Shown here piece after piece: positions 3,367 through 44,489 of a DNA stretch of 64,000 nucleotides. The stretch's first letter is position 1; every line of letters begins with the position of its first letter. The notes beneath the pieces are model-generated. The model worked only from the letters and a program-made list of their open reading frames with translations, was not told the origin of the DNA and ran no database searches. Source of the stretch: Symbiodinium sp. CCMP2592 (taxonomy: Eukaryota; Sar; Dinophyceae; Suessiales; Symbiodiniaceae); NCBI GenBank assembly GCA_905221615.1, contig CAJNDT010000328.1:62001-126000 (forward strand), written 5' to 3'. The position numbers and the translations under genes are program-made.

Positions 3367-3443
3367 GGGCCCTCACCCTGTTATAATGGGAATAGAATAG
3401 GGCCCTAATATAATCCTTATAGTCACTATCACAGGGTGGGGGC
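3367..3443. mobile_element. Family N palindrome, copy 1
   Basis: Arms GGCCCTCACCCTGTTATA and TATCACAGGGTGGGGGCC face each other across about 40 bases. The interior is shared with 9387-9493 (TAATCCTTATAGTCAC). Confidence 0.65.
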
Positions 3444-3771
3444 CATGGATTTTCGGATCTGAGCCTCGTAGGGTTTCATAGGATTCAGATTGCTTTTGAG
3501 ACCTCAAGAATCGGTCGAGCCCTTCGAGGTGCACAGGTATAGGAACAGTATCTTGGACTTTACGGACCTGCTTAGAGTTTAGTGCAGGGGCCTTGAAAAT
3601 AAGAACAAAGAGTTGAGCTCCTTTAGCGTATGGAATACGATTGGGTACTAACTGATCCTTAATAGTTAGAATAGGGTTCCCTTTAAAGGGGTCTATATAG
3701 GGGCTACTATACAGGGTCCATAATAGGGTTCTTCACAACAGAGCCTTGTGGGGTTGAGGAGCCTTCATTAA

Positions 3772-3850
3772 CTAGGTTCCTGAGTGGCCCCATGACAATA
3801 AGGCTACCCTTTTTCCTACTTTTCGCTTTTAATAAAGGTACCCCGACAAC
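3772..3850. mobile_element. Family B-prime MITE-like element, partial
   Basis: Left end CTAGGTTCCTGAGT and interior ACAATAAGGCTACCCTTTTTCC resemble the copies at 19646 and 59372. The right end (...ACCTAG) is missing. Confidence 0.5.
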
Positions 3851-4080
3851 CTGAGCCCTAAAACCCTAAACCCTAAACCGCTAAACCCCTAAAACCCCTG
3901 CAGACTTGACTCACCGACGCATCTCCCCTCACTAGAAGCTCAGGGCCTCATACCCACTGCTCTCGCTACCAGCTCCGTGGATGATATAAACCCTGGGGTT
4001 CCTTTAATATTATCTAGAAGGGTACCGTTTAAGGGGTTCCTTTAAGAGATCCATAGGGGTTTTAGGGTTTAGGGTTTAGG

Positions 4081-4171
4081 GATATAAATCCTGTAATGCC
4101 CATAAAAAGGAATATACCATAATTCCCATAGTTTAGCGTCCCTAAGGTAATGCAAGATTTATATCATCAAC
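4081..4171. mobile_element. Family A MITE-like palindrome, copy 1
   Basis: GATATAAATCCTG at the left faces GCAAGATTTATATCATCAAC at the right. The interior has AATATACCATAATTCCCATAG. The left outer bases GTTGAT seen in other copies are replaced by telomere-type sequence. A second left-end-like GATGATATAAACCCTG lies at 3980. Confidence 0.65.
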
Positions 4172-4544
4172 AGCTCCCTGTTGCTGAGCTCCCGGCAGTA
4201 AGTGCAGTAGGCATGGCACGTCTGGCCAGCGCTGGGGAAAAGCAGACAAGTCTCTGCATACCTGGATGGCAACAACAAGATGCTGCCAAGACAACAGCAC
4301 CCCAAAATGCTACAGTATAGCGAAAACGGTCAGGATAAGCGAAGAGCAAGTTGTAGCACGACAACATCTTAAAACCCAAACAACTCACAGCCCCGAACCT
4401 CCATTCTGGCATCTGGCGCTCAAAACTCTGTCAACGATTCGTATTTCGCCCTTAGACCGTTTAGAGCACCACCAACAGATTACCAGGAGCCCACCAGGAG
4501 ACCACCACAACACAACGGCCAACATGCTTGCCCCCCTTTGTACT

Positions 4545-4655
4545 CTAGGATACCCAGTAACCTAAGAAAAAAAGGCCTCTCTTTTTGGTATTGGGTAACT
4601 TTTTAAGGAACCTAGGACTACAAAAAGGGAATAAGGGTACTACTGGGCATCCTAG
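4545..4655. mobile_element. Family B MITE-like element, copy 1, with 4-bp target duplication
   Basis: CTAGGATACCCAGTAACC at the left faces TACTGGGCATCCTAG at the right, 111 bp apart. The flanks on both sides are TACT, a probable 4-bp target-site duplication. The interior (AAAAGGCCTCTCTTTTTGGT, then AAGGAACCTAGGACTAC) matches four other copies. No coding capacity. Confidence 0.85.
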
Positions 4656-5017
4656 TACTGGCGGAACTCAGAAACACCTCACCACGTAGTTGGCTGAACC
4701 TTCCGCGTGCTCCTCGGGATACGCCCACGCAACAATGTACTGGCGTGATATGCGTGCAGAGTGGCTGGCAGAACCTTCCGCGTGCGCCTCGCTCGAACAC
4801 TAACCAGTCCTCTTTACTCCTCATGCAAAAAACCCGATGGTACGTACCACACCGCTTGGGAAACAAATAACGACAGAGTCTGGTAAATACCAAAATAGAA
4901 CTGATTGATCACATCAAAACAAATAACCCTAAACCCCGCTAAAATGACTCTAAACCCTAAACCTGCTGAGACCCAAGACACCTAAACCCCGGAACCCGCA
5001 AAAAAAATAGCCCTGCA

Positions 5018-14290: not shown

Positions 14291-14430
14291 TTTTCCGGGA
14301 CACTTGTACCGGCTTTCCCGGACAAGTGTCTCGGGCTCCCCCCGGGACGCCCCAGGACCGGAGTCCCAGGCCCTCCCCGGGACGCCCCGGGACCCCCCCG
14401 GGACACTGTCCCGGGGCCGCCCCGGGACGC
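14291..14430. repeat. CCGGGAC/GGGACGCC-rich palindromic tract
   Basis: CCCCGGGACGCCCC, CCCCGGGACCCCCC and GACACTGTCCCGGGG recur within 140 bases together with partly facing GGGACACTTGT and GGACAAGTGTC. The tract can form strong hairpins and lies just inside the left edge of the island. Confidence 0.7.
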
Positions 14431-15199
14431 CAATTTAGGATATTGGAGTGACTGCACGTTTTCGTTTTCTTGCTTTTGTTGGGTTTTGCTTCATTTTTCA
14501 AAAACTCACGCGGGCACCGACAGCCGCAGCGGGCTTCCAACACCAGCTCCGCTCGCTTTTTTTGTGCGCTCCGGGTGGCCGCCTTTCGCGGTCATTAGTG
14601 ACTGCTATATAAAAAACAATTTTGGATTCTGGCCCCTGGGCCCTCCCAGCGGAAATGGCGTCACTTTTCACCCCTGCGCCCGTTTTTTGGCTATCTACTT
14701 TTGGCTCGTCCTTGCTATTTTTTGCTTTCCCTTTACGGTTGGGACGCAGTCTCCCTACAAAACCTTCTGCGGTTAGTCACCTACATGTTTCTGCGTAAAT
14801 CGGTTTGGGTTTTTGCCTTAGGACTTTAGTGCCTGCCGCACAAGGTTTTGGACGAACAAAAAATTCACTTATTTTCTTCGCCTCTGGGCTGCACCTATCC
14901 ATACCCTGACATGTCTCGAGGTCACTTGCGCGTGGTCATACGTGTGTGCACTTCCTGACACTGTGCTGGGCTGAACTGAGGTGCGCTTCCGTCCAAGGCA
15001 AAGACACGGCGCTGAACGGAGGTGCGCTTCCGTCCAAGGCAACGAAACATGGCCTGTGCCACTGCTTGCTTCTGAGCGGTGTGCCATGGCCTTTCTTGCA
15101 CGCTTCCACGCCAAGACCCGTGGATGCTGCCCTTTTCGGCTCAGTGCTTCCTTTCTTTGTTCCTGCGCCGCTACGCGTCCGCACACTCTTGGAGTGACA

Positions 15200-17300
15200 T
15201 TCATGGCTGGAGGTCCGCGTAAAACTAAGACCGCCAAGAAACCCAGTATGTCCGGCGGCAAGGGGGGGAGCAAGAGCGGGGCCAACATCCCCAAGTACAT
15301 GTACTTCCCGAAACACGCCCTGGCTCCGTATCCAAATGAGTGCGGCAATCCCTCGCTCCTCTGCCAGAGCAGCCATGCCGAAGTCGACTTCCTGCAGACC
15401 CAACAATATCGGCACGCTGCTGCCCACTGCAGACATCCAGACTTGACCTACAGCGGCGATGTTGACATCACGTTCCCTCGCCCGCCGGGCCTCGTCCAGA
15501 ATGGGGCGCTTCGCTAGCTGCTCCATGTCCTTGCGAAGAGCCTCGCGGGCCTGCGCGACGGAGAACTTCCGTCAAAGGCACCATGTTGGCGCTTCGAACC
15601 TTTACATACGTGCTGCTGCACGTGGCCTCTGCCTTCTCCTTCGCCGCGCGCGCCTTCTTATTTTGTTTGTCTCGCCAGTCCGCTTTGCGGGCTTTATCCT
15701 TGGAGCGGATGTCCTCCAGCTTGGCCTTCGCCTTAGCTTTGGCCTCCGCACCAGTCGGACTCAAGCTCGGATGTCTGCGGCTCGCACTGCCCGCCTCTGC
15801 CGAGCCCTCCGACACTGCTCCCTTGAGCGTTGTCCGGGCCGACTTCTTGTTCGCGTTCTCGTTTCTTTTCTTGGAGCGTCGGGCCTGGCTGTGCCCACCC
15901 CAACGCACACATGCAAAGCGTCCACGAGCGCACGCACGCTGCACTTGAATTTTGTTGCTGCCTCGAGGGCCTTTTTGGCTTTGGCCGCTTCCTCCTCTCT
16001 CCGCTGCTTCTCTTTCCTTGCGGTGGCCTTTGCCCGGGCCTCGCGCGCCTTTGCCTCCTTTCGCTCCGCTTTGCTCTGAGGCAAGGCTGCACCTTTGCCG
16101 GAGTTGACGCCGGCCTGCCAGCCGCGGGCACGATAACGTGACTGCAGATTGTTTCTCGGACAAAGGCTAAACTCTCAAGATTTCTTGTGGTGGCCTTGCG
16201 CAACTCTGCATGGAAGCTCAGCCACCCGTCGATGAGGCTGCGGAAGGCATGGAGGGCTTCGCCTGCATGTGCCATGTGCAGCATGAGATCGACGCGCATC
16301 TGCACCTGAGACCTAAGGGCTGCACGAGAAGGGAGTAGAGCTCTGCACAAGTGGTGTCCGTCAGTTCTGCCGGATCGAGGCCCGGTGTGATCATGTCGAA
16401 GATGCCTCAGCGAATATATGCCTGTGCCTTTTCTGTCGTCGCGCCATGTAGGCTGCCCGCGTTTCAGCTCCTTTCGAATCTCCCTCCAAGAGATGCCTCA
16501 CAAGGCACGACTCGGTCCGTGTGTCGTGGACGGCACTGCCGGGCAAGCCTCGAAAAGGTGCGGGCGCCGCGGGCGCGGGCGCCTCCTTTGTCTTTCTACC
16601 TTTGCAAACATCACTTGCACTGGCTATCCAACGAACAACAGCGGCCCTGCACTTTTCTGCCCGAGCCCTGGAGGGTGCCCATCGCGCCCTGATCACGTCC
16701 ATCGCTTCTTTGCATGCACGAGACTCAGGACGAGGATTTGCGCAGTGTCTTTTAGACTTCAACAGCGCCGGCGCACTTGGTTGCCAAGGCACTTGCCTCC
16801 CGTGAGCGCGCGCAGAGAGCGTTTTGCGGAGATCCGTGCGTCCTGTCATAAAAAAAATCTGCTGACAACGGCCGCGACCCGAGTCCTCCCGTCAAGCTCC
16901 TGCGCCTCCGCTCTTTCTTCCCGCGCCTCCTCTTCCTGGAAGCACGCCGCGATAGCGGCTTCACTTGCCGGCGCCGTGCCCTCCCAGTCCGTAAACAAGT
17001 CTTTGTGCCTCACATGTGGGACGGTCTCCTTCGCCGTCGCCTTCAGGCCGAGGCCATGTGCTTCCATGGTTGCGTACTGTCACTTGCCAAGCCTCCTTCT
17101 TCGCAGGCCTTGGCCGCGCACGCCTCCGCACTCACATTGGCACCTGACGGTGTCGTGCATTGTTGAGAACATATTTTCCCTGCGCCCCTGCCTGCTTCGC
17201 CCTCGCGTGCTTCCTCCTGCGGGGAATCGAGATCACAAACCGCCGGCCGACATTGCCCCGACCTCCTGCGAAGGCGGGGCCTCGTCCTCCGCTGCCTCAA
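15200..17300 (-). pseudogene. Broken Lys/Glu/Ala-rich coiled-coil coding remnant
   Basis: I do not recognise this gene. On the minus strand, coding-like stretches appear one after another but in different frames. They are an acidic helix (17067-16850, with AACFQEEEAREERAEAQEL); a helical segment (about 16330-16130, QVQMRVDLMLHMAHAGEALH); a Lys/Ala/Glu-rich coiled coil (16084-15960, KAERKEAKAREARAKATARK); another (about 15750-15610, DIRSKDKARKADWRDKQNKK); and EQLAKRPILDEARRARERDV (about 15525-15465). Each is interrupted by stops or frame changes within 100-400 bases. Either introns or frameshifts could explain this, and the many changes make decay likelier. Long plus-strand frames over the same DNA look like GC-driven shadows. 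Confidence 0.4.
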
Positions 17301-18529
17301 GCTATTGGACTTGCTCCCCCTTCTAGGCCTGTGCTGGGCCTACGACTGTGTCTGCAACTACTTCAGTACCTCCGCAGGAGCCTCCTTTCCCTTGTCGCCG
17401 CCGTGTCCGCTGCGGACACCTTCTGCTCTGCCATGTCTGCATAAGTATTTATTCCTGTTGCTTTGGAAGATTGCCAAAGACAAGTAAGTCTAGAGACCTT
17501 GCACGTATGCCTTCCAGTGCGACCACCAGGCCTCGTATCAGCATAGCTCAGTGTCCAGAGAAAGAGCTTCAAGGATCCGAGCATCCGACACAGCAGTAGA
17601 GCCCCCTGCGGCTTCATGCTCGCACCGAGGCGTGGGGTCGGGCTGGGTGTGTGCGAGAGCTTGAGTCAGCTTGAGTGTTTGCGGCTGCGCCCGTCGCGCT
17701 GACTTCGTGCACTTGTAACTTCTAGCGGCCAGCCGGCCGTCGGGATTGTTTCACACCCCCTTCACAATTGAAGAAGAAATCTGAAGGGTCTGGTCCAAAA
17801 CGAAAAGAGACGAATTTGGATGCACCCGAAGAAGAGGAAGGAAAGGGTCTGGATACCCCACGCACACTCAAAGACAAGAAGATGCCGAGAGTGGGTCGTC
17901 AGAGAGATCCCGTGGTTCGGAAAGCTCTTCTGGACTACATCGTCGGTACAGACACGAAGGTTGCCACACCAAAAGTGCGTTTCCTTGCTCTGTCGCTACT
18001 ACTACGACTACAGCAACCACAACTACGACGACGACGAAGAACTCCTGCTAAGCATAGCACTACGTTGCGAGCCCCTCGCCGTTACCTTGCTCGACAGCAA
18101 TGCCCCGGGACTTGGGACCCCGAGAGTAGGTTTACCTCGCAATAGAATCAGAACATGTGCACCAGTTGCCTCCCAGGATTGCATCATTGGCTCGATCCAC
18201 GATTCGCTCAATTTCTTGATTCTTGGACTTCGGGGCCTCCCTGTGCTCTCTTCAAGATGGTTTCGCTGTTCCGGGGCTTTTCGGAGCTTCTCCGAGGACT
18301 CTGCAGCTTTATCTCTGGATAAATCGACGCCTGTACGAGCCCCGGGCCCCTGTCCGTCAACACAACCTTCATATATAACCTTGACCAAAGCATCGGCATG
18401 CAAGGAAAAACAATTGCATAAACCCTAAACCCTAATAGAGTATAGTTTGGGTGGCCGGGGTGGGTTGACAAGCGACGCGAGCGCGCGGCCCGGGGTGCTT
18501 CACACCCGAGCGCGCGCCCTCCTGGGCAC

Positions 18530-29984: not shown

Positions 29985-30351
29985 TCGTGTCTTAAGTCCA
30001 AACCAAAAGCCGCGCATCGGACTTTTCGCCAGTCGCCGAGGCACTGAGCTGCTACCCTACACGTCCCTAGACCGTCTACGAACAGCCCTGCAGCTTACGT
30101 TGTACCTCTCGAAACAGGAACGTAACGAACACGAGTACTTGTAGATTGTAGTTTGCAAGTATGGCCGCATGTTACGTTTCTGCGTCTGCATGCGGGAGGA
30201 AGCGCTCCAAACAGCAACATGCTGTAGTTTCTACGTTTTCGTTTGTGTACTCGTGTTCTTTCTGTTCTTCCTTCGCTGTTTCTTCCGGGGCGACGTTAGT
30301 TCTCGCTGAAACTGCGTCAAGCCGATTTAAGCGTCGCACCCCTAGGACCCA
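28995..30351. other. Pyrimidine-rich low-complexity tract left of the large element
   Basis: Poly(T) with GCCC/GGCCC interruptions (28995-29056) is followed by an imperfect tandem repeat (29066-29370), a G/T triplet-like stretch, and long CT/TTC-rich sequence with a pure (TC)n run at 29946-29983. From about 30000 to 30351 the composition is mixed and unique-looking. A 75-codon plus-strand frame there runs into the terminal repeat and is not convincing. An approximately 37-base stretch starting CTAGTAGTGTTGTTGTTG occurs at 29411 and again at 29737. Confidence 0.7.
29066..29370 (+). repeat. Imperfect tandem repeat, units of roughly 50-65 bases
   Basis: Five or six diverged units share TTTCCACAGGAA/TTTCTCTAAG/TTTCTTCAGG, then GGAAAAC, then TTTTCCTA-GGATT. 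The unit length drifts, so the array is old. Confidence 0.6.
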
Positions 30352-30394
30352 CTTGGAATCCTGGTTGTTTTATAAGTGGTTAACATAGTTATGT
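30352..30394 (+). repeat. Left terminal inverted repeat of the large element
   Basis: 43 bases starting CTTGGAATCCTGG and containing TTTATAAGTGG; the exact inverse of 44075-44117. The outside flank ends ...CCCA. Confidence 0.93.
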
Positions 30395-30691
30395 TAGTTA
30401 GCTAAAAAGTTAGGTGGAGTTAGCTTATGTTATAGACATCAAAATTGTAGAAGTAACTTGTGTGTTTTGGCATTGAGGTTTAGGCTAGGGACTCTGATAT
30501 GAGAAGACACTTCATGGAGCATAAACACTGGTATCGGAAATGAAATATATAAAACATGTAGCTTGTCAAACAAATTTAAAGCAAAAATACATGTCAATGG
30601 CCTGCATGGACAGGCTGTCGTGCATGGCCTATGGCTAAAAATGTCATGTGCATGTGGTACAGCCTTGTGGCGGATTGAGAAGCACTGTTTT

Positions 30692-32770
30692 TCAAAGCCT
30701 GTGGTACAGCTGGTACGGTAGCAGCACAGTGGCCTCCCTCTCTGTGGTCTTGCTGTACACCATTGGGTACAGCAAGGAGTCCATGGACACGAAGCCTTGC
30801 TCGTTGGTGATGGAGCACTTGGCGAACTGCTTTGTCTTCTGTGTCTCTGTTGGCCTCCAACGTTGGACGAGTGTGGCTTTGTCGCCTCCAAGCTCCAAAT
30901 GGAAAAGCACTTGGCCCATGTCCCATCTTCCGTCTTCCTGGTGGAACACCACGACGTCGTTGGCATGGATGGCACCACCCCTTGCGAGCCTCGCGATAGA
31001 GGCAACCATGGCTTCAGTTGCTGAGCAATCCACAAACTGGTTGAGGAATTGCAGCTGGTGCTTGTTGGGCTTCTTTGGCTTCACCAACTGGCAGGAGTCT
31101 GGAAACAGCCCGGCCTGTGTCAAAGTGGTGATCTCGGTGGCGAGCACCTGGTTGAGCAAGTGGATCTCGAAGGCGGCTGTTTTCTGGAGCCTTGTGGCGA
31201 AAGCAGATATGGTTTTGTGCTTTCGTTCGCTCGTAAATGTCGATGGCAGGCACCCATGCCGTTGGAGAATATCAGGCAAGTGGAGCAGCCAGTGCCACTT
31301 CCGCATCAGTGGCACGTCGAAGTTGGCCTGTTGGAAGGTCTCGATGGATTCTTCCGCAGCCCTGAGAAGGCTGGCTCTGGTGGTGGCTCCATACATGACC
31401 CCTTGGTGAACCTGGTCGATCAAGCAGGCCTGGCTCAAGAAAGCTTGGCAAGCCTCTGGGCAGATTCCGCTTGACACAACAACAGAATGCAAAAAATGGC
31501 GAATGATTGGATAAAGCCCTAGGAGGTCCGAAGCTTGGCAACTGAACTTCTGGCTGCTCTTGTACTTGGCGACCTTGCTTGTGTCGAACAAACCAGCCAA
31601 GTGACCGGCCTTGGAAGCACCTGGAAAGTTCCACATCCTTATGTATGGGCCCATGGCCTCCCAAATGTTGTAGTGCTCGGAGATGGCTTGGAAGCTCTGG
31701 AACAGCACGACTGGGGCCGTTCCTTGCAGAATGCCGTGCATCCAGTCATGGCAGAACTGGCTGACTGGCTTCACTTGGTTCTTCGCCAACAAAGTCTGGT
31801 TCAGGAGCAAGGCCTGGGGATTCCAGGTCCAACCGGTGGCTTGTTGCCATTGCGAGAATTCTGCTTTGGTCCTGCACGTGGCTCGCCTTTCGTCTAATCT
31901 GCGGTAGGACTGGATGACGTCTTCATCAGTGGTCAAAACCAATTGGCTGTATTTGGTCGTGCGGTGGTCCATGATGTCGTCGTTGTCGCCTGTGGGTGGT
32001 CCTGAGTGGATGTTGGCGCATAATATGCAAAATTTGGTACCAGAATCACCTTTGGAAGACCAAATCTGCTTATGGGCACCGCCGTCTGCCAGACATATGG
32101 CCCACCGGAAATGGAGCCGGACATCGGAACCTGGGCCATGTGGGGATTTCAACACAAACCCTGCCAATGGTTCCACGTGGGCATTGGCGAAAATGGTTTC
32201 CAAGATCTTGGACATGATCTGGCAGATGCCGCCCTGGACATGGCTCACGAAGTTGGACCTTTCAAGAGAGATGGTCAGCCAGAGGTCCTCGTGGTGGAGG
32301 AATTGGTCCATCTCCCTGAAGCTGGCATAAATGGCCCAAAATTTACGTTGGGCAGGTCCTAAGACGTTTCCTGGTATCACCTCATCTGCATAAAGTATAA
32401 GTTGCCATGGCTTGGAGACGGATGATGGGTTGGCTCGGTGCTTCCTTTGGATCAGATCATGGAAGCTTCCACCCATCTGGAAAAGACTGGCCAGGTAAAC
32501 CAAGAGGTTGGCAAAGTACATGGTGACTTTGGCACCATCATCGGTGGTGACCTCTGCTTCTTGGATCAAAGGACCCAGTAGCCCACCATGGCAGCTCTGT
32601 AGAAGCTCCTCCCTGGCTTTCCGCTGGTCATTGGAAGAGCTCTTCTCTGGGAGGCCTTGTTCCTTGGCGACTTCCACAAAAGCAGCCAGTGCACTTTGGG
32701 AGTGACCTGGCAAAGCAGCTTTGAAGGTCAGCAGCTGCTGCAGTTTGCTCTTCTTCTGTGGAGGTTCCAT
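30692..32770 (-). CDS. DDE-type transposase, CACTA/Plavaka-like (gene T)
   Basis: Single open frame of 692 codons from ATG at 32770 (context GGCCATGGA); the frame is open two codons further but without ATG. Predicted to cut and join the element ends. Landmarks: Asp129 in LILYADEVIPGN; Asp229 in AICLADGGAHKQ, followed by a C-x2-C pair (Cys248, Cys251); a D-x2-H motif (Asp342-His345) in CHDWMHGIL; LHLPDIL near 497-503, then Glu515 in TSERKHK. This order (D, D, C-x2-C, D-x2-H, HL...ER-K) is what I know from CACTA/EnSpm and Plavaka transposases, where Asp129, Asp229 and a late Glu would form the catalytic triad. Which acidic residue is third is my inference. The C-terminal 95 residues (DVVVFHQEDGRWDMGQVLFH) resemble a small SH3/Tudor-like barrel. 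The N-terminus is basic. No stop or frameshift is visible, so it may be functional. Confidence 0.82.
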   Translation of the reverse strand: MEPPQKKSKLQQLLTFKAALPGHSQSALAAFVEVAKEQGLPEKSSSNDQRKAREELLQSCHGGLLGPLIQEAEVTTDDGAKVTMYFANLLVYLASLFQMGGSFHDLIQRKHRANPSSVSKPWQLILYADEVIPGNVLGPAQRKFWAIYASFREMDQFLHHEDLWLTISLERSNFVSHVQGGICQIMSKILETIFANAHVEPLAGFVLKSPHGPGSDVRLHFRWAICLADGGAHKQIWSSKGDSGTKFCILCANIHSGPPTGDNDDIMDHRTTKYSQLVLTTDEDVIQSYRRLDERRATCRTKAEFSQWQQATGWTWNPQALLLNQTLLAKNQVKPVSQFCHDWMHGILQGTAPVVLFQSFQAISEHYNIWEAMGPYIRMWNFPGASKAGHLAGLFDTSKVAKYKSSQKFSCQASDLLGLYPIIRHFLHSVVVSSGICPEACQAFLSQACLIDQVHQGVMYGATTRASLLRAAEESIETFQQANFDVPLMRKWHWLLHLPDILQRHGCLPSTFTSERKHKTISAFATRLQKTAAFEIHLLNQVLATEITTLTQAGLFPDSCQLVKPKKPNKHQLQFLNQFVDCSATEAMVASIARLARGGAIHANDVVVFHQEDGRWDMGQVLFHLELGGDKATLVQRWRPTETQKTKQFAKCSITNEQGFVSMDSLLYPMVYSKTTEREATVLLPYQLYHRL

Positions 32771-33200
32771 GGCCAAAAATGGCTGAGAGTGGGTTTGGGG
32801 GCAAGGGCAGTGGCAATGTGCTTTGCTTCACATGGGAATCAATGGTATGTGTGCTATATGGATGAAGGCTGCATCCCTGTCTATATAGGCTGTGGATGTC
32901 AGACTCACATGCATGGACCTCTTCGTGGGAGAAGTCTGGAACCTTCGTTGCTGAAGCGATGGCGGGCACAGTGCGTCAACAAAGACCTCGGAAGTGCATA
33001 TATACACAGAAACAGCATGCTGCAGGATGGCCACGGCATGGCTTCAAAGAATCACTTTGTCCAAAGACATGCAGGCGGTCTTTTTGCTCGTGTCGGCACG
33101 GTGCACCCTGCCTGGGCTGTTGTGGCTTCTTGCTACCCTGCACCTGGGCCCCTTGGTGCTGCCCTGCAAGAAAACAAACTGCCTGGAACCATGCCTGGCA
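32771..33200 (-). promoter_or_regulatory. Gap between genes Z and T, possible 5-prime leader of the transposase
   Basis: About 430 bases without a good open frame. Immediately before the transposase ATG the minus strand reads CTCAGCCATTTTTGGCC. This resembles the core of the dinoflagellate spliced leader (AGCCATTTTGGC) with one extra T. It could be chance. No TATA-like box stands out. Confidence 0.3.
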
Positions 33201-36200
33201 CTACTTCTTGGGAGCCTTCTTCATGGCCTTGTTGGCTTTGTGGGCCTCGATGTACTCCCTCCAAGCTTGGCGGCCGTGGAGACGGGTGCCCCGAAAGTTT
33301 GGGTCCCAACAACTGGAGCATCCCTTAACATTACCACGACAGCGGATACATCCGTAGAGGATCTTTGTGCTGCCGCCTTTGGCGGCGGTGGCACCTTTGC
33401 CAGCCTCATGGCCGTTGCAGGTGGTGCCCTGGTTCGCCGAGCTTTGTCGGGTAGACATGGCTGCTGCTGGCCGCTTCATATGCTGTTTCTTGGGCTTCTG
33501 GTCGGCCTGGCCGTCCTCCTTGGCCTTCTTCTTCTTGTCGGCCTTGGCATCCAGCAGCTTCTGGAACTGCTCCTGCTCGTACTCCTGCAATGTCTTGGCG
33601 TCCTTGCAGGGTGAAATGCTGCAGAACAACCCCGAATAAGCAGTATGGAAGGAAACTAAACAAAAATATACACGTGTCCTGCTTGGCACTGTCTTCCTTG
33701 GCAGTCGTCTCCGTGGGAGCTGCTTCGACTCTGGTCGTGGCTTCAGGAGGCGGGCTTGCCGGAGGAAGTGGCAAAGCAGCGGCAGATGCTGTGCTCTGGC
33801 CAAAGACCTGGCCAGGGGCAGTTGTGCTGGCAGCACTCTGGCTGTGGGACTGGACCATGCTTCGCGGCGACAGCCAAGGCAACACTGCTGTTGCTGCGGC
33901 GGTGCACATGGGCCCTTGGCTTCCCTGCAGAGTGGCTGTGCCTTGTGTGGCTGCTTGGGCTTGGATGCCATGCCGCAGCTTCAGCATTTCCAGCTCCTGG
34001 TCGAAGTAAGGTGGAGCCCTGAGGTGTCGCTGGAGGCCGCTTGGACCTGCACCTGGTGCCGCCGGCCAATGAAGCATGGGTGCTTCGAAGAGGCACCTCG
34101 GGGACGAAGACGTAGAAATGTCTACATGCATGCAAGAAACAAATGCAACACGGAACAGATCCAAGTTATGCAACCAAGGGGCTTTCTTCAAAAATGGAGC
34201 CAGGCATGGGTCCTGCAGATCTGGCTGGTCGCCTGGACCATAGGCCTTGGAGAGCCAAAGCTGGCCCATCTCTGATGGATGGTCTGGATATCTGCTGGCG
34301 CCGGGGCAATTGCTGCTTGGCAGGGACTGGAAGATGATTCCGAAGTCCTGGACTGCCGAGTTGATGGCAGCTGCCGAAAGGCTTGGCTTGCCTTGCGAAG
34401 CTTGCACCATCAAGACAATGGCGACCGCTTGGCCCTTGGTGCATTCTTTTAAAGAATGCAGTCCCATGGCTCGGAGTCTTTTGGCTAAGAGCTCCAGCTG
34501 GTCCGTTTGGCTCGTGAGGGTGGACAAAGCGACCCAGTCTGGCCTGGTCAAGTATGGACACAGCCGCTGGACGGACTGGCCAGTGTTCACCAACTTGAGC
34601 TGGGAGCCGGTGTTCATGGACAAATTCTGGATGGTGTCCAGAATCTTTGCTTTCATGGCCTCTGGCAGTTTGGAAGCTTCGCCGGCCTTGGCAAGCATTT
34701 GGCAGATGCTCTCCGAGGACCAGGACTGGAATCCCTGGATCTTAGCCATGAAGGTGTTGGCCATGCTCTCGGTGACTGGTGAGTCTGGCAGCATCTCGGC
34801 CAGCTTCTGGAGATGAGCAATCTCCTCGAGGAAGTCTTGGCACCCGTACCGCTGCATGGCCCTGAGAAGCACTGGCTGCTCACACTGGCCTGGTCGGGTT
34901 GAATGGCCTAAAAGGCTGCAATGAAGAAAGCATGGGAAACAAACACAAAGGAATGCGACTTGAAATGAAGTTCAGAGAGAGATATATATATATATATAGT
35001 ATAAATATGTGTTCATGGCCAGTTGGCTGCTTCGAAAAATAGGGTGCTGGCCACATGGCTCGCAAAGCATGGTATGGCCGATTGGCTTGCATGCAGATCA
35101 TGGCAGAGCACTGAAAGCTTTCTTTTTGGCAGCGACCACTGTGGCAGCTGTGGTTTCACGTGGTTTGTCTGGAAGAAGCCAGGGTCGTCCTTGGTCCTGG
35201 CAGGAGCAAACTGCATGGGTCATCTTTGTGAATGGACACACTGGCCTTGTGGTCACTGGAGACTTCTCTGGCATGGCCGTTGGACTGGTGGCCCCAGATC
35301 TCTCCATCTGGTCCAGTTGGTCCTGGACCCAGGCCCCGAACTTGGGCTCCCCCATGTACCTTGGGCCAAGTGGTTGGCAGGCTTTACCACTGAATGGCTT
35401 AAATGGCAACAAAAAAGATTGGGAGGTTTCCGGATCAAGCCTATGCTGCATGCTGTTATTGTTATTGTAGAATGAAAACTATGGAATCTATATCTGGTCG
35501 AGCTGCCACTGGATTTGTCTCTGGGCTCGTCCATGGTCGTCCCTGGTAATGGCTCTGGAAAGCCAAAGGCACTTCTGGCACCATGTTGGCGAACCACTGG
35601 CAGCCTCCAGTTGGGTTGCCCCGGTGGCGACTTGCTCGTTGGCCTCTTGGATGAAAACACTGGCCAGCTCTTGGGCCCTGGTCCATCTCTGGTTGTGGAG
35701 CAAGATGGCTAGCCAGCCAACCTTGTTTCCAGCCCGTGCTCTTGGTCTTGCTGTGGCTGGTTCCTGAAATGCCTTGGCTCCACGGAACTGGCTCTGCTGG
35801 TGGTGTCTTGGGTTGTGGGATGGCCCACTTTGGTGTCAGCATGAGAGGTTTGGCTTTTGGTGCACTGGAGCTGGACCTGGCCTCTGATTGTGGCGGTGAT
35901 CTTGGTGGGGTTTGGGCTCGTTGGAGCAGGTCGATCCCTCCCACTGGTGGGGTTGTTGGCGGCGGTGGTGTGGGTGGTGTCTTGGGTTGTGGGATTGGGG
36001 TTGGAGGGGTGCTGAAAGGGGTGGAAATGGTGGACTTGGCTGGGGGTGGTGTTATTGGAACCTCCTCATGCACTGTCTGTGGCCTTCGGGTGGGTGGGTA
36101 TTTGAGCTTGGGTTTGGGTGGCATGAAGGTGCTGCCTGCTGGCGGTGTGATGGGTGTGGTGCCGTCTGGCGGCGGTGTGCCGGGTGTGGTGCCGTCTGGT

Positions 36201-37020
36201 GCCGGTGTGTTGGGTGTGGTGCTGCCTGGTGGCGGTGTCATGGCTGTGGTGCGGTGGAGTGTGTGGGAGGGGCTCTGCTGGTGTGTGGGTGGCGCTTTGG
36301 ACGGCAGCTTGGGGCCCATGTCTGGGCCACTGACAGGGGCTTTGGGCTGGATGGTTTGGATGTATTGGGCGGTTGGTTGAAGCTGCTGTGGGGCAAAGGA
36401 CACTGGGAGGCCACTGCTGGCGGGACACTGGACTGGTGGTTTGGGTGCTGTGGGTGCGGTGGCAGCATGGCAAGCGGGGATTGGCCATGTTGCGGGCGAA
36501 GTGGCGGGGGGGTGGAAGGGGATCCTTGGTAGGAGTGGATTGGTGGTGGGGAGAAGAGGCATGCACATGGGAGCTGGTGTTGGCCAGGTGCATGGTGCTA
36601 TGGGTGCTGTGGATGCCATGGGCAGTGTGGCGGTGGCCTGAAAGGATGGCTGTGCCAGTGCTGGCACAAGTGGCCTGGGCGGAGCATAGCCAGTGCATGG
36701 GTTGGGGATTGGGCATGGGTTGGGGATTGGGACGTGGAAGGGCCATGGCATTGGGGGGACGGGTTGGGCCATGGGGGGTTTGAGTTTGGGCGGAGGTTGG
36801 GCTGTGGTCTGCTCGTCGAAAGGTGTGACGGGTGATGGCGGGGCTCCTGGCGGTGTGGGGCTGGCTTCGGTGGCAGCCTCCGGGGATGGGCTTCGCAGGG
36901 GGATCTGGACCGTTGGTTGCCCTGGTGTTCTGGCAAGGTTGGGTCGGCCAGCTCCACTGTGGGCACCTCGGTGGGGTGGTCGCTGGGGCTCGTTGGCACC
37001 TCCGTCGGCGACGTGGCCAT
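33201..37020 (-). CDS. Proline-rich protein with C-terminal cysteine motif, multi-exon (gene Z)
   Basis: Function unknown. Proposed start is ATG at 37020 (MATSPTEVPTSPSDHPTEVP). A Pro/Thr-rich part follows (about 36910-35800) with repeated DGTTPxTPPP units, then a helical part in another frame (about 35790-35490, RAQELASVFIQEANEQVATG), an exon at about 35451-35100 (ending VVAAKKKAFSALP or spliced before it), a long segment (34872-33674), and a last exon 33618-33201 ending KKAPKK-stop. The last exon has EYEQEQFQKLLDAKADKKKK, MKRPAAAM and the cysteine motif YGCIRCRGNVKGCSSCW, probably zinc-binding. A canonical GT-AG intron of 55 bases (33673-33619) joins the last two parts in frame. Other junctions are unresolved, and a frame change near 36920 could be an intron or a mutation. 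A (TA)n tract lies in a gap at 34982-34999. It may be an accessory DNA- or protein-binding partner of the transposase. Confidence 0.55.
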
Positions 37021-37103
37021 GGCTGGCACTCTGGATGACGACTGAGTTTATGTGGAAATATTTGATGATGTTTATATGGTGGCTGTTATGTATGTAAAAT
37101 ACC

Positions 37104-37234
37104 TAGATTCAGAATTTGAATCTAAATGCGGATATCTGGTAGTAAGATTCAACTTCTGAATCTTGGAAAATCTTAGATTCAAAATTTGAATCTAACTGCC
37201 AGAATCTGTGAATTAGATTCAGATTCTGATTCTA
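37104..37234. promoter_or_regulatory. Four helically phased palindromes (TAGATTCA-type iterons)
   Basis: Palindromes at 37104-37124, 37144-37164, 37173-37195 and 37213-37234 have arms TAGATTCA/TGAATCTA (AAGATTCA/TGAATCTT in the second) around 3-7 bases. Centres are at 37114, 37154, 37184 and 37224, spacings of 40, 30 and 40 bases, all near whole turns of B-DNA. The set looks like a binding array for a dimeric protein. The motif was not noticed elsewhere in the window. Confidence 0.7.
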
Positions 37235-37386
37235 CTGTATTTGTTACTTTGGCAGTATGGTGACATACAAAACTTCTGTCTGTGGCTTCCTACACTGGTT
37301 CGAGCACTCTGGGCTGCTCCGAAGAGCAAAGATTCTGGCAACAACTGTGGTCACATACCTACCTGGGCTGACAAAAGGGACGGTGT

Positions 37387-37698
37387 GGTATGGCCAATTG
37401 GCTCCCTACAATGGTGGTGCAAACAGTCTGGCATGGCCACATGGCTCCCTACAATGGCTTGGCTTGCTGCTACGAAGCTTGGGTGTTCTTGCAGAAAGTT
37501 GGCTGTTTCAGGAGTTGGATTTGGTGGCTTTTGCTTCAGGGCCTGGCATAGGAATGGCGCTTGGAGCTCTCGGGTTTCGCAGGTTTCGGCTTTGGGGTTC
37601 ATGGGTACATCGTTCTGGGTTTATATGGGGTCTGGGGTTTGGGGTCTACTGAAGTGAACCGGCACTATGGATCTCCACTTCTATTTCAGACCCTAAAC
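37387..37698. repeat. 300-base direct repeat inside the large element, copy 1
   Basis: From GGTATGGCCAATTGGCTCCC to CTATTTCAGACCCTAAAC. It matches 39096-39395 over its whole length with moderate divergence (for example ACGAAGCTTGGG, GCTTCAGGGCCTGGC, GCTCTCGGGTTT shared). Its end contains telomere-like GGGTTT and CCCTAAAC, unlike the rest of the element. Confidence 0.85.
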
Positions 37699-37737
37699 CA
37701 TGAAGCTTATAGACCCCTATCGGAATGGATGCTGGTC

Positions 37738-38695
37738 TCAAGCTTGGTGCCCCTGTTGCTGCTGCTGTGGCCGTGGCCAGCTGTCCTTCTTGGTCTTCCA
37801 GTGTGCAGCTGCTGCTTGCTCTGGTTGTGACTGCTCATGCTGCTGTTCTTCTTCTGCCTGTTTCTGTTGGTGCTGAGTATATGATACATGGCTTACAAAG
37901 ATATCTTCATTACAATCAGAATGTAATATACAAACAAGTTACTCCAGACAAATCATTTCTATATATGTCTCTATATCTGTACAAAACATGTATGTGTCCT
38001 TCCATGGATGTTCACCCAAATGGTCTTCTGAACATATAGAAAAAAGCATACATCTGTGCAGATATAAATATATAACCGACAAAAAAATAACACATGTGAT
38101 GGCCTTTGTGGCTTGGCATGTGACAACCTGCTGCTGGTATGGCCATGGAAGGCTTCTGGAGTTCAAGCACCCTTTTTTTGGCACGGCTTGGAGATGCTGC
38201 TGCTGGCCTGCATGGTGCAGGCTGGGTCCTTCAAAAAAACCAATGGCCTCCATACCTTTGCAGCCATGGCCGACCTGGGCCGTCTGGAGAAAGGCCCTGG
38301 TGGCATGGAAGAAAGTGGCCCATGGTGCCTGGTTGCTGGTGGTGGGTGGCCCCTCACCACCTGTAGACGAGGCCTGCTCCTCCCGCCAAGCTGGTGATCC
38401 ATGGGGAATCACACTGGGTGCAGTTGGCATTGTGGTAGAGCTTCCACAGAAAGATAGTGGAGCGGTGGCATACCACACACCGCAGCATTACGTGTGGCCC
38501 GATGGGCTCCTCTGGTGGAACCATGGCACTGCTTGGGAGGGCCGTCACTGTCCCCTGTGGTGGAGGCTGGACGGGCTTGGAAGAGACGGCCGTGGAGTCC
38601 GTGGAGTCGTGCTTTGCTGCCGGCTTCTTGGCCCTGGGCTTGGTCCTCCTCGTGGCCTCCTTGGCAGCCGCTGGCTTTTTGACTCCTTTGACCAT
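37738..38695 (-). CDS. KKPAA basic, zinc-ribbon and Gln-rich protein (gene W)
   Basis: Function unknown. Starts at ATG 38695 with MVKGVKKPAAAKEATRRTKP, a lysine/proline/alanine-rich basic tail likely to bind nucleic acid. A C-x2-C-x15-C-x2-C zinc-ribbon-like motif follows (CVVCHRS...NANCTQC). After about residue 95 the frame changes. The adjacent frame gives a coherent segment (WREEQASSTGGEGPP..., HATRAFLQTAQVGHGCKG) down to about 38165, so a splice or frameshift lies near 38390. A last exon at 37872-37738, preceded by ACTCAG, encodes a Gln-rich end (EEEQQHEQSQPEQ ... QQQQQGHQA-stop). Exon joins are inferred. The gap at 38160-37873 is AT-richer and intron-like. It may be co-expressed with X, whose tail ends 163 bases upstream. 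Confidence 0.5.
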
Positions 38696-38858
38696 GGCGG
38701 CACTGGAGTGGAGGCTTTGGCTAGCTGTGGGCAGCTCGCTATATGGCCAAAAGAGGCTGCAGCGGAACGAAAAAGAGAGACGAACATGTGTGCCATGGCA
38801 TGCCTGGCCACTTGGCTTTCAAACAACAAACTCAATGGCCTGGCATGGCCACAACGGC

Positions 38859-40138
38859 TCAGGCAATCGAAACTGGAGGCGTTTTTTTTGGCCGCTGGTG
38901 CACAGCTGCTGTGCTTGGGTTTCCGGCAGCCTTCGTGGTCTTCTTGGTCTTCTTGGTCTTGATGGCACCCTCAGCAATGCTGCCGTGGAGATACCTGGTG
39001 GCTTGGCAGCTGCTGTTGCTGCGAATGGTCTGTGTTTTGGCAAAAGCTGTGCTCCTGCAGCATGGACCTGCCTTGCATGGCTCTGCACACAGTCTGGTAT
39101 GGCCATTTGGCTCCCTAGAATGGAAGTGCAAACAGTCTGGCATGGCCACTTGGCTCCCTGCAAAGGCTTGGCTTCACCCTACGAAGCTTGGGGGTTCTAG
39201 AAGAAAGTTGGCGGTTGGAGGACTTGGATGGTGTTGGCTTTGCTTCAGGGCCTGGCTTAGAAATGGCGCTTCGAGCTCTCGGGTTTGGGAGGTTATGCTT
39301 TGGGATGTATTCTTGTGGGTTTAGGGTCCAGGGTTTAGAGTCTCTTAAGGTCAAACTGCACTATGCATTTCCACTTCTATTTCCGACCCTAAACCCAAAA
39401 TGCTGAGACGTGACGGCATGGCATGGTCCTATGTACACTTGGCTTTCGCACAACACAGCAACTTGCCTGGCATGGCCACAGTGGCTACATGTCCCTCGTA
39501 TATAGAAACAGGACAAAGCTCTGGATTTTCTGCTCTGGGCCTGCAACTCTGGCTGCTGTGCAGCGAGTTCATGTGGCCTGCATTGACCTCACATATGCGG
39601 TCCGTCTTGAAGAGCCTGGGCCTGTGATGGCCATGTTTGGCTTTAGCAATCACGACAAATCCCTGGCATGGCCATGCAGGCTGGGATGTGCATGCACTCG
39701 TCGAACTTGGCATGAAGTATAACAAAGCAAGCATGACATGGCCCCTGAAGGCTCACTTGCTCCAGGAGAGTCCTGCTACATGTACTTTTCCTCGCAAACA
39801 AGCAGAGTGCATGGAAGTCTGCATCAACTGGTGCGGTACCTTCTATGGAAATCCTTGGGCAGAGCACATTGGCCCCCCCATGGCTCGTAGTTGGGGTCCG
39901 CCGACATCATCTCCCACTCCTCCCACCCACCACCGTACTCCCAGGGTTCTAGAGGCGGAAGATCTGGCTTCTCGGTCGTCTTGGAGTTGGCTGCTGGCTT
40001 CTTCTGGGCTTTCGCCTTGCACACAGGTGCTGGCTTCTTCTTGGCCTTCGCCTTCCTGCTCTGGGCAGCTGCCTTGTGGACCACCTTCATGGCTTTCATG
40101 GGGGCAGCAGGCTTCTTGAAGACCATGGCTTTGGGCAT
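38859..40138 (-). CDS. Lysine/alanine/proline-rich basic protein, multi-exon (gene X)
   Basis: Function unknown. ATG at 40138 opens MPKAMVFKKPAAPMKAMKVV followed by KAKAKKKPAPVCKAKAQKKP, a histone-tail-like basic region. An acidic, tryptophan-rich stretch follows (LPPLEPWEYGGGWEEWEMM). A canonical-looking donor GAAG-GTACC sits near 39842. Downstream candidates are an exon around 39640-39480 (RLFKTDRICEVNAGHMNSLH) and a last exon at about 39070-38859 ending in IKTKKTKKTTKAAGNPSTA...KKTPPVSIA-stop. The 300-base repeat (39096-39395) lies between them as intron. Middle exon limits are uncertain, and the two ends might belong to separate genes. The basic ends suggest a DNA-binding role with the transposase. 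Confidence 0.45.
39096..39395. repeat. 300-base direct repeat inside the large element, copy 2
   Basis: Second copy of 37387-37698, here within a probable intron of gene X. Ends CTATTTCCGACCCTAAAC and has TTTAGGG-type bases in its last third. Confidence 0.85.
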
Positions 40139-40407
40139 GGTGCAGGCGGAGGAAGCTCTTGGGAAGAAGTGGCTGGATCAAGCAGACAATTACAGACATG
40201 GTATAGCCATGGTGGCAGGCTAGAAAGCAGAATCGGTGCTGGGACAGCCACAGGAGGCTTGCTCAAGTCACCTGGATCCAAGAAGGTGCTTCTTTTTGCC
40301 GCAACAGCCTGGTCCCTGCAGCTCTGCAAAACTTGGAACCCTCAAAACTCCTGCAGCTCTGCATGGTGCAAGGATGGATCCCATGTGCATGGCCCATAGA
40401 GGCTGGG

Positions 40408-43400
40408 TCAGCCCTTCCTGGGCTTTTTCTTGGCTGAAGCCGACGTGGCTGCTTCCTCCTCGACCTTCTGCAAGATTTGCTCATTGGCTTGGATCTTCGC
40501 AGGGTTATGGAGGATGGGCACGGTGCATGGCCCCTGCTTGATCGTAGTCAAGACCATGTTGCCCTCATCCTCGCCCTCTGCTGTCCTGCACCAGAAAAAT
40601 GGCACGATGGTGCCCTCTGCCTGGAACTGGAGGTCCTGCTTCCAGCTTCCAATGGCCCAGTCATGGCCGAAGGCCTGAATGGCCAGCTTGGGCGGCTTCT
40701 GGCCTGTCTTCACTTTGCTGATGGAACCCAATGGAACCAGCTTGAGCTTTTTGCTGGCAATGGCTTTCTTGGCATACAGTGCCTGGGGACTGGAAGCCAT
40801 GCAAAGGAGTTCCAAGTCCTCGACCGACTGCTCCTGGTAGCATTGGTGGAGTGCCGTGACCACAGCTGCCTTTTGGAAGTCCTCCTGGGCCATGGCATGG
40901 CTGGATGGGAGTCCCCTGGTTATGATGTCGGCTGGGCCGATGGCTGGCATGGAGTGGCGGGAGACCCGCCACTTCCCCAGCCCCGCCAGCGGCACAAAAA
41001 CTGTCTCCGGTGCCTGGAGCACTGGCCTGTGCTCCATGGTCCCACCCTCGTTGCTGATTTGCAGGAGCTGGTAGACCTTGGCTCCGTGCTCCTTTGGCAA
41101 GGTGTACCTTGGTTTGTGTATGGAATGTATCTACAGCAGAATCTTATGAGGGAACAGACATTAAAACAGCAAAACTCCTATGTGCAATCATGGGCACTGG
41201 TCGCCCACCTTGATGTGGGTGTTCTGGAGCAAGGTGGCTTCCCATGGCTGGGCAGAGACTGCATCCTTGATGGTCTTTGCCTCTGCAGCTGGGGTGGCCT
41301 GCTTGACCTTGGAAACGTCCTGGGTGAAAAGGTCGAGAATCTGGGCCAGGGACTCCAGCTTCTGCTGGGCATCAGGGCCAAGCTTTTCCTTTTTGGTCAG
41401 AAACAAGATGGCTCTGACGCAAAACTTGCCGAAACACTTGTAAAGATGGTTGCTGCCGGCATTGGTGCTGGTGCCTTCTGGAAGCTGGCTCTGGACCAGT
41501 TTCCAGGAATCCGAAAGCATGGACTCCGCCGTCCTGACGGACTCCATGTTCTGTGGCGACGACAGTCTCTGGACGTCGGCTCTGGTGAGGAGTCGTGCGA
41601 AGCCGTCTTGCTGTTTGGTGGATGTGCACTGGGTTGCCCATAGAGCTGTGCGGAGCAATGGGTAAAGGTTGCCAGGGTCTGGGAAGGTGGTGTGCGACAA
41701 CGCCTCCATGAAATCCTGGCCCATCATGCACGTGGTGCCGTAGGTGGAGGAGAAGTGGGAAAGGAATTTCAGCAATGGAAAGCTTGTGCCTCCAGAATAT
41801 CTCGAGACATAATGCCCTATGGCTGGGAGGCTCTGCCTGCAGGCAACTTCGCCGCTGGCAACGGACTGGATTGCCGACTCCAGACTGGCTCCCATTTGCA
41901 CTTGAATGGCTATTTGGCAGGCTGCTTCCAACTCGCTGGTGGCTCTGCCAATGGCATTGCCAGAGTTGGCTCCGACTTGGAAGAACTGTGGAAGGCTTGG
42001 CATGGCTTCTTCCACACTGGAGGCCACCACATGCCACCGCCACCCGGTCTGGATGGCGGACCAGACTGGGTCTGTCTTGGGCACGGAGATGGCTTTGCCA
42101 CTGGGATCCGTGGTCCCATGCTCCAGGCATCTCAAGAATGCCGTGGTGTGGCTGCTGGCAAGGGATAGGTATCCTCAGTGGCCAATGTATGTCTACAATA
42201 TACATTTATCCGCAAATTGTAAATGGATTGGATATATAGAGAAAAGGAAACCAATTCTATGTGTCATCTGAGTGGCCCTCTGCTCCACTGACTGGGGCCA
42301 GGGAGCCCTTGCTCTCCTGGACCAGCTGCTGGTTCCTCCAAACCTGCTGCTGGCGCTTTTGGGGGTCCGTGGACATCTGGAGACAAATGGACCCTTGGAG
42401 CAGATGCACTTGCAGGCCAACTGCCAAGAGTTGGTGTCCCTTGGCCCAAACGTCAAAGTGGGACACCATCTGCCCTCCCCGGTTGGAGGGGTGGCAAAGA
42501 ACTTGGCTTGGAACCAAGGTCTGCTGCTGGCAGAGGCCATGGTGCTCCAGCACCTGCAAGACCTTGGTGACTCTGGTGTTCACTGGCTCGCGGCCATTCA
42601 CAATGGCCTCCACCTCTTGGACCACAGCTGGAGGGACAGCCATGGCTTCTGGCTTCTGTGCGGCTGTGGCCTTGTCTGGTATATCCTATCTGGAATTCAA
42701 GTGTGGCTGTGCCGGGCAACTTCTTTCTGCTCGTCTGGAACTGCTGGATTCTAACCACCTGCATATATATCTGTCGGGTTCAACAGTGGCATGGTTCTGC
42801 GACCATGGATATGCATGGATGGCCTATACTGGCTGCAGGCAGACGATAAAGCAAACAAAACTGTATGCATCCCTTCAACACTTGACACTTGCAAAACTGT
42901 TCTGCAGCAAGCCTTTTCCTGCGAAGGCCTGGCAGAGTCTGGAAGAGTCACTCCTGGACTGGTCGTGGCTACTACCTGGCTTTCTTCTTGTAGCTTCTTT
43001 TGGCCTGGCCGAGGACTTGGGCCGTATCCTCATCATTGCGAATGGTCTTGATGCTGGTCTCGATCTGGTGCTGTTCGAGTTGGATGGTGAGATCGCACTT
43101 CCTTGGCCTCTTGCCACTCATCAAGCAGGTGACTTTGGAACCATTGATGTCCATGGTAACTTCTTCTTCTTGGTTGTCTGGAAGAGACCTCTTTCTGGTC
43201 GACTTCTTTCCTGAGCCTGGCTCTGGAGCATCGAAAAGTTGCTCTGCTGGTGTTGCTGGTTGGTCGAAGCTCTGGTTCCTCTTCTTGATGAGATTGGCCA
43301 TGGCCGTAGAACCCGACAGACTAGCATTCTTGTCGGGTCTCTGGCCTGTGAGCAACTCAATTATGGGTTGGGAAGTGGGCCGAAGTTGGAGCCACTGCTT

Positions 43401-43490
43401 GTCCTTGGACAGCTTCACCAGATCCTTGGGGATGAGGATTGGCCTCTCCGACTCGTACTTTATCTGGATGGCCGCACGAATTTCCACCAT
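40408..43490 (-). CDS. Large unrecognised protein, multi-exon (gene Y)
   Basis: I do not recognise this gene. It is the first of the co-directional set, about 580 bases inside the right terminal repeat. Segment 1, from ATG 43490 to 42976, is MVEIRAAIQIKYESERP... with a basic patch KKSTRKRSLP and end SYKKKAR; a CCAG-GTAG donor follows. Segment 2 (about 42660-42280) has PPAVVQEVEAIVNGREPVNT and Gln-rich QKRQQQVWRNQQLVQ. Segment 3 (about 42155-41209) is about 315 residues, mostly helical (FVSRYSGG-like GHYVSRYSGGTSFPLLKFLS). Segment 4 (41091-40408) has VPFFWCRTAEGEDEGNM and ends EEEAATSASAKKKPRKG-stop. The join of 3 and 4 is supported by an in-phase GT-AG intron of 117 bases (41208-41092). The other two joins were not resolved. 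The total is roughly 850 residues. It could be the second protein of a two-component transposition system, analogous in position only to TnpA-type proteins of CACTA elements. Confidence 0.5.
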
Positions 43491-44074
43491 GCTTGGAAGC
43501 TATGGTGGACGTGGAAAGCTGTAGCTGGCACTCGCTATGGCCGGGTGGCTGCAGCAAACATACCATGCAATACAAAGACATGAGCACACTGCTATGGCCG
43601 TCTGGCTCCCATGATCACACACATGCAATGCCAAATACAAAAAATCGAACAACAACTCTGATAAATTATTTGCTAAAAGCAAACAACATATATCTCTGGC
43701 AGTCCATACTATAATCTTCAAAATCAATGATAACATTCAGCAAAAACTTCGATTCCATTCTAAAACCCATGATTTCTTATCTTATACCTTCAGTGCACTC
43801 GACGAATTATGCACCACAAATCAGAATACATGTCATTGAAATATTACATCTCCATGTATGAATTTCGTATTCTTAAAGCCTATATTTCAACATCCATAAC
43901 TCCATGTAACTCACCCTAACTTTTATAAAAGGTTAAGTTAATTATGTTACTTAGCTAACAAAATATTAACTTTAGTAACATAACATAAAAGATATAAGTA
44001 TTATAGGAACATGTAATCACTTAATAGACGGTTAACACTCACTTATAACAGTTTAATAACTAGGGTACAACTCC
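43491..44074. other. Right subterminal non-coding region of the large element
   Basis: AT-rich, about 580 bases, no open frame. It contains TTATGTTACTTAGCTAAC, mirrored as TTATGTTAGTTAGCTAAA at the left end, and several GTTAA/TTAAC pairs that could be transposase sites. A promoter for the minus-strand cluster would be expected here; no specific box is evident. Confidence 0.55.
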
Positions 44075-44117
44075 ACATAACTATGTTAACCACTTATAAA
44101 ACAACCAGGATTCCAAG
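44075..44117 (-). repeat. Right terminal inverted repeat of the large element
   Basis: Exact inverse of 30352-30394. The outside flank begins CAGGG, so CA is shared with the left flank. Confidence 0.93.
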
Positions 44118-44489
44118 CAGGGCAAAAAAAGCACAATGAAGCGATAGTCTTACGTATCGTTCTTCTTTATTTTCCGCGTCTTTCTTGTTCCTTTAACTAT
44201 TTCTGATTGTCTTTATTAATTTATGGCCTTCCGTATGTCTTTATCTCTCTGTTTTTGTTCTTTGGTTATTTCTTCATTGTTTGTTTTGTTTTTGTTTCTA
44301 ACTCTCTTTGGTTCTTTCCCTTGTGTTTTCTTTGTTCTTACCTTATAGCTTTCTTTATTTACTTAGTTCTCTATTCTTGTTTTCTTTTTTACTTGTAGCA
44401 TCCTTTATTTGTTTATTTCTCTAGTTCTTGCATGGCTCTCTTTCTTTCTTTCTTTATTGATTTCTTTCTTTCGTTCCTTCCTTCTTATT
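44118..44489. other. Pyrimidine-rich tract right of the large element
   Basis: T/C-rich sequence with TTTCTTTC runs, no gene. Similar in character to 29560-29985 on the other side. Confidence 0.75.

Follow-up and report, generated by a model that had tools for sequence, protein, structure and literature searches.

A question raised by a 64,000-nucleotide stretch of the Symbiodinium sp. CCMP2592 genome (contig CAJNDT010000328.1, positions 62,001 to 126,000; this whole stretch is referred to here as the window, and its coordinates are used throughout) is whether the 13,766-bp segment at 30352-44117, which is bounded by inverted repeats, is a complete and mobile DNA transposon, and whether the proteins it encodes besides a transposase belong to its transposition machinery or are cargo. 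We find that the element is a real, recently mobile transposon, and very probably an autonomous cut-and-paste element that represents one family of a larger dinoflagellate superfamily in the same genome. The terminal inverted repeat (TIR) is 43 bp long and perfect in the window copy (30352-30394 on the plus strand and 44075-44117 on the minus strand), and when its first 20 bp are searched with up to three mismatches allowed, the only matches in the window are the two element ends (chance expectation 0.02). The dinucleotide CA adjoins both ends, at 30350-30351 and 44118-44119. Among the Tandem Repeats Finder rows for the window (ordered by position and covering up to 55369), four lie within the element and none of these is of the TTTAGGG type, described as the dinoflagellate telomere repeat (PMC11453091); the flanks are dominated by this type, and inside there are only isolated TTTAGGG words near 37730 and 39390. 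The preliminary description of this DNA had noted the perfect ends, the common CA flanks and the near absence of telomere-type repeats inside, all of which hold.

The host genome assembly (1.098 Gb in 5383 contigs) was searched with each of the two element ends, 40 of 49 candidates being scored in each search, and end pairs are matched across the genome, mostly ~13.7 kb apart. Both ends were read for 20 copies, and in every one the 2-bp flanks agree, being TA in 18 and CA in two (the window copy, C328, and C5174, the latter given in contig orientation). Eighteen of the 20 have two perfect TIRs, the exceptions being C926 (one mismatch at one end) and C247 (three and one). The CA reported earlier as the target is thus correct for the window copy but is a minority target, and CA as a general rule is ruled out by the 18 copies with TA. 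That TA might instead be part of the TIR is also ruled out, because the CA on either side of C328 and C5174 is a direct repeat and not an inverted one. The duplication is preceded by C in 11 of the 20 copies and followed by G in 11, and since the two together make 22 of 40 sides against an expectation of 10 (P = 5e-5), the target preference resembles CTAG; this test mixed element and contig orientation, which leaves the combined count unaffected because the CTAG motif is its own complement. End matches in C3557, C5059, C472, C5252, C181, C660 and C3454 were left unpaired or unread, and no short non-autonomous derivatives were identified in the two end searches, in each of which nine of the 49 candidates went unscored.

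Eleven copies are complete, with lengths of 13,639-13,772 bp and pairwise differences of 11-96 substitutions. With identities of up to 99.9%, and in a 1.1-Gb draft assembly in which artefacts are possible, such copies could in principle be segmental or assembly duplicates and not products of transposition; however, the borders are identical while the flanks of the eleven have just short repeat matches in common, each copy has its own 2-bp duplication, and an empty site is found for one of them, C4922, so that we regard duplication as scarcely conceivable. When the flanks of C4922 are joined with a single TA, all 40 scored places (from 916 candidates) match across all 118 bases (99%), and in the three places that were read the junction is exact with one TA, the sole difference being at base 6, far from the junction. 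This is the empty site of C4922, and it lies in a repeat. The preliminary description had suggested a large, possibly complete autonomous element ending in CTTGG, and had proposed a search for multiple copies that keep these borders in differing surroundings, each with a 2-bp duplication; the 20 copies and the empty site bear it out. DNA transposons in some Symbiodiniaceae assemblies are described as little diverged and may remain active (PMC8045281). Two 8-bp indels are seen among the eleven copies, the window copy alone being without 8 bp at 35266 and three copies being without 8 bp at 39307; these may have been left behind by small insertions or excisions.

The predicted transposase (~692 residues; 30692-32770, minus strand) occupies one exon, with start and stop placed by inspection. 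A genome search with it gave 773 candidates, of which 64 were scored, yielding relatives at ~100, 97, 66, 60, 47, 44, 34 and 32% identity in 67 matched stretches; 62 of these are stop-free, and some copies are truncated or split. Ten of the 67 rows, mostly second pieces of one place, were left out before counting, leaving 57 places. A further family, C497, has a transposase at 31% identity, and transposases of its type occupy 44 places at 93-100% identity to C497 among 67 matched stretches; with places already counted and second pieces merged or left out, this search adds 47 further places. An alignment of six transposases, the five others being 30-66% identical to that of the window, has invariant columns that include D135, D235, C254, C257, D348, H351, H499, H503 and E521, from among which we infer the catalytic D and E residues. 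The resulting motif order, D..D..C(2)C..H(3)H..E, is that of the CACTA/Transib/Plavaka (CMCT) clade. Comparison of the window transposase with that of the 66% family gives a non-synonymous divergence (dN) of 0.25, a synonymous divergence (dS) of 1.81 and a dN/dS of 0.14. Pfam returns zero families for all six transposases at E up to 10, a profile search of the PDB matches zero chains, and no relatives were found in viral contigs or prokaryote genomes.

Upstream of the transposase there are further genes, and about seven coding units, transposase included, can putatively be recognised. The earlier count of five co-directional units on the minus strand was too low, but its orientation stands, since all frames conserved in other elements are on that strand. 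In order from the right end, and all on the minus strand, these are P1 (42972-43490; 172 residues), P2 (40408-42649; three pieces), the KKPAA proteins P3 (39824-40135) and P4 (38354-38692; two C-x2-C pairs), the proline-rich P5 (35098-37020; gene model uncertain) and P6 (33201-34857; probably three exons, with a zinc-ribbon-like C-terminus). Two introns are likely in P2 because its three pieces align in order to a single 657-residue open frame of C800, and the first two pieces align also to a 677-residue frame in C497; on inspection the first intron, between the GAE and YLSL parts, looks like GC-AG. A probable P2 intron at 42278-42171, missing in relatives, is flanked by GGCCACT near repeats (by inspection), which would fit an insertion of the introner type. 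P6 aligns to a single 564-residue frame in C3312 and has a conserved end segment, GCIRCRG..GCSxC..DPxFxGxRL. A 74-residue C-terminal segment of P5 is found at 30% identity in the 66% family, and P1 is weakly alignable to the proteins next to P2 in C3312 and C497, so that recurrence in other families is seen for P2, P6, a segment of P5 and, weakly, P1, with P3 and P4 seen within the window element. Searches of Pfam, NCBIfam and PHROGs gave no credible match for any of the partner proteins; PAPA-1 for the frame at 33201-33980 (E 0.0029; 18.8 bits against a cut-off of 25) and the best solved-structure candidate, one PDB chain at E 2.4, were both rejected as not credible.

Are these proteins then captured host genes, with only the transposase mattering for movement? 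Pack-type CACTA elements carry captured host genes as cargo, and it is in favour of such an origin that P2, P6 and P1 are without credible domain matches, that no recurrence of P3 or P4 is shown in other families, and that the conservation of P1 is weak. The genomic distribution of P2 and P6 argues otherwise. P2 was counted at 123 places (10 of 133 rows left out) and P6 at 116 (10 of 126 left out), the omitted rows being mostly second pieces of one place, apart from four P6 rows that are separate weak places. Of the 123 P2 places, 76 have a same-strand transposase (C497 type included) no more than 25 kb downstream, against a chance expectation of 0.15, and only one has a transposase on the opposite strand. 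These 76 comprise 22 places of the window family, 24 of other families and 30 of the C497 type; the partnership reaches transposases of ~31% identity, and in 40 of the 54 places outside the window family the transposase is 31-34% identical. Looking from the transposase, and without the C497 type, P2 is upstream of 45 of the 57 and P6 upstream of 51 (22 of 23 in the window family and 29 of 34 outside it), while 62 of the 123 P2 places have P6 downstream at a distance of up to 25 kb. The same genes at similar spacing are not expected from chance capture, and we consider it quite unlikely that all of the partners are cargo. The portrayal of the accessory proteins as unusual additions accordingly has to be revised, as P2 and P6 at least are conserved partners of the transposase and look like core parts, with the roles of P1, P2 and P6 being putative.

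Three further loci show departures in structure. The copy at C335:1529816-1548738 is 18.9 kb long, owing to ~5 kb of additional sequence that separates P2 from P6. C1280:167500-187500 has two copies of each of the segments that match P5 and P6, separated by ~7.3 kb, which would fit a tandem duplication of part of the element there. Between the P2 pieces of the 34%-family copy in C3312 (locus positions 1907-4747) the opposite strand carries a 946-residue frame that is Gag-like and includes a zinc knuckle, apparently a nested retroelement.

The ends of the element carry subterminal arrays of the word GTTA, at 30379-30432 on the left (plus strand, in helical phase) and 43897-44090 on the right (minus strand). 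The first 110 nucleotides contain seven and five GTTA words at the left and right tips of the window element and seven, six and five at the transposase-side tips of the 66, 47 and 34% families, and the interior control, 1286 overlapping stretches of the window element, gives at most two. For periods of 9.8-11.2 bp the phase coherence exceeds that of random placement at each of these tips (P 0.007, 0.009, 0.0005, 0.0005 and 0.003, in the same order), with the families being related and the tests therefore not independent. When periods of 6-16 bp are scanned, the one that best fits the four left tips jointly is 10.5 bp, the DNA helical repeat. It is the spacing that is kept while the sequence is not, because the tip of the 34% family, read as CTTTGATG, has just 29% ungapped identity to the left tip of the window element. 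Copies of other families, each read at a single end, are flanked by TA in C5273, C1735, C771, C3312, C190 and C800, by TT in C1280 and by CA in C1034, and such one-end flanks do not show duplication. Three copies of the 34% family (C3312, C190 and C800), also read at one end, sit in different GC-rich tandem repeats, which suggests a target preference.

To what group does the element belong? CACTA elements have a D-x2-H landmark after C(2)C as well as subterminal repeat arrays, and Tc1/mariner elements make a TA duplication. The element shares that duplication, and no Pfam DDE family matched its transposase. In the available text of one recent account (PMC12730594), the CMCT clade comprises EnSpm/CACTA, Mirage, Chapaev, Transib, Plavaka, ESTA and Lanisha, and has target duplications of 2 to 5 bp and, in most cases, 5'-CA..TG-3' termini; EnSpm/CACTA elements have CAC..GTG termini and a 3-bp duplication, Plavaka elements have TGT..ACA (group A, 2 bp) or CATCA..TGATG (group B, 2-3 bp), and ESTA denotes EnSpm-like elements with TA duplications in rust fungi. 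The window element resembles this clade in its D..D..C(2)C..H(3-4)H..E order (D135, D235, C254/C257, H499/H503 and E521), in its short duplication, which is 2 bp in every one of the 20 copies, in having D348 and H351 as a D-x2-H pair, and in its subterminal arrays. It differs in its CTTGG..CCAAG termini, and in the distinct tip of the 34% family, from the usual CA..TG; in the lack of similarity detectable by hidden Markov models; in its partners P2 and P6; and in the helical spacing of its GTTA words. The preliminary label of CACTA/Plavaka is not upheld, as the published termini of EnSpm/CACTA and both Plavaka groups are absent, as are the 3-bp duplication and any match to a Pfam transposase family model.

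The element is unlikely to belong to Plavaka or to ESTA, a described CMCT lineage that makes TA duplications. The CMCT motifs and the TA duplication (18 copies, the other two CA) are both present here as in ESTA, and the 2-bp duplication, C(2)C and H(3-4)H are shared with the fungal Plavaka group; nonetheless, CTTGG..CCAAG and the 34% family tip match none of TGT..ACA, CATCA..TGATG or the usual CA..TG, and no Pfam model matches. ESTA is fungal, and it is set apart from the window element by description only: TET/JBP genes are described in ESTA and Plavaka, and the available text mentions no set like P2 and P6 (PMC12730594). A virus-like element such as a Polinton or a relative would account for the large size, the several genes and the inverted repeats, but the tested frames gave no match to polymerase, capsid, packaging ATPase or integrase families, and the 43-bp TIR, 2-bp duplication and DDE-type motif order are found instead, rendering this extremely improbable. 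We conclude that the element would work like a CMCT-type cut-and-paste element, its membership in a named lineage being unproven. No description of a complete autonomous DNA transposon of such a kind in dinoflagellates was found in the openly accessible papers searched, and a Repbase consensus may exist.

Several observations weigh against the reading of the element as an autonomous transposon with conserved partners. The DDE assignment rests on residues invariant in six sequences because there is no credible match to any characterised transposase in family libraries or solved structures, and the gene set is known here from genomic DNA. Two further dN/dS comparisons are saturated in dS and yield no ratio, and the transposase variants within the eleven complete copies are one synonymous and six non-synonymous, so that no purifying selection is visible at within-family depth. 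The transposase frame is shifted in three of the eleven (C890, C5362 and C3292), and P2 has indels not divisible by three in four (C3292, C4944, C4922 and C4667). No transposase match is present at 47 of the 123 P2 places. In some of these, such as C1247, C2075 and C4190, P6 lies at a uniform distance of 5-6 kb, and they may belong to families whose transposase went unscored; conversely, six of the 57 transposase places are without P6, 12 are without an upstream P2, and C4013 is without either. The order in C497 is P2, a P1-like protein, a zinc-finger protein, the transposase and then a P6-like protein, this last being a weak match (24% over 198 residues, E 2e-8), and therefore neither gene order nor P6 is fixed everywhere.

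Outside the element the window contains three frames of at least 220 residues at 15.5-17.3 kb and, on the right, one simple-repeat frame of at least 180 residues. The stretch at 14300-18500 is GC-rich (up to 60%), unlike most of the window outside the element, and no clear gene was recognised in it.

Because P2 and P6 are kept with the transposase across distant families, the transposition machinery may have several parts. The transposase, a partner or both would bind the GTTA words along a single helical face, so bringing the two tips together, and by DDE cut-and-paste chemistry the transposase would cut at CTTGG and join the ends 2 bp apart at TA, with CTAG preferred. P2 and P6, and perhaps P1, could belong to the transposition complex itself or serve it as subunits for targeting or regulation, and P6 possibly holds DNA or chromatin through its zinc-ribbon-like tail. 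Tn7-like bacterial transposons encode several proteins and make a 5-bp duplication. The likeness lies in several element-encoded proteins being kept together across divergent families, possibly, by analogy, as one complex; the differences are that no homology was found, that no ATPase or endonuclease was recognised, and that the duplication is 2 bp rather than 5 bp.

As for expression, tandem gene arrays of dinoflagellates are described as giving a unidirectional transcript that undergoes spliced-leader trans-splicing (PMC11453091). The spliced-leader sequence, which occurs in the dinoflagellate literature, is present as 429 exact occurrences in the host genome (217 and 212 by strand), the reversed control giving 0. 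By analogy with such arrays, the genes of the element may be read as one transcript that is cut into mRNAs by spliced-leader trans-splicing, and one promoter could therefore serve all ~7 genes. We tentatively propose, at somewhat less than even odds, a multi-subunit eukaryotic machine in which a CMCT-type transposase acts with P2 and P6 (perhaps P1) on phased GTTA ends and is expressed from a spliced-leader, operon-like unit, forming a dinoflagellate superfamily of its own that would parallel Tn7 in function rather than move by a single transposase.

Dinoflagellate genomes are large, and the element described here is young, complete, multi-copy and has exact ends; its mobility is therefore testable, and it is a possible gene-delivery tool. 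The phased GTTA arrays provide a directly testable model of end recognition. Should P2 and P6 turn out to be necessary, this would be a eukaryotic cut-and-paste transposon that relies on several proteins of its own, a dependence that would be made possible by operon-like trans-spliced transcription.

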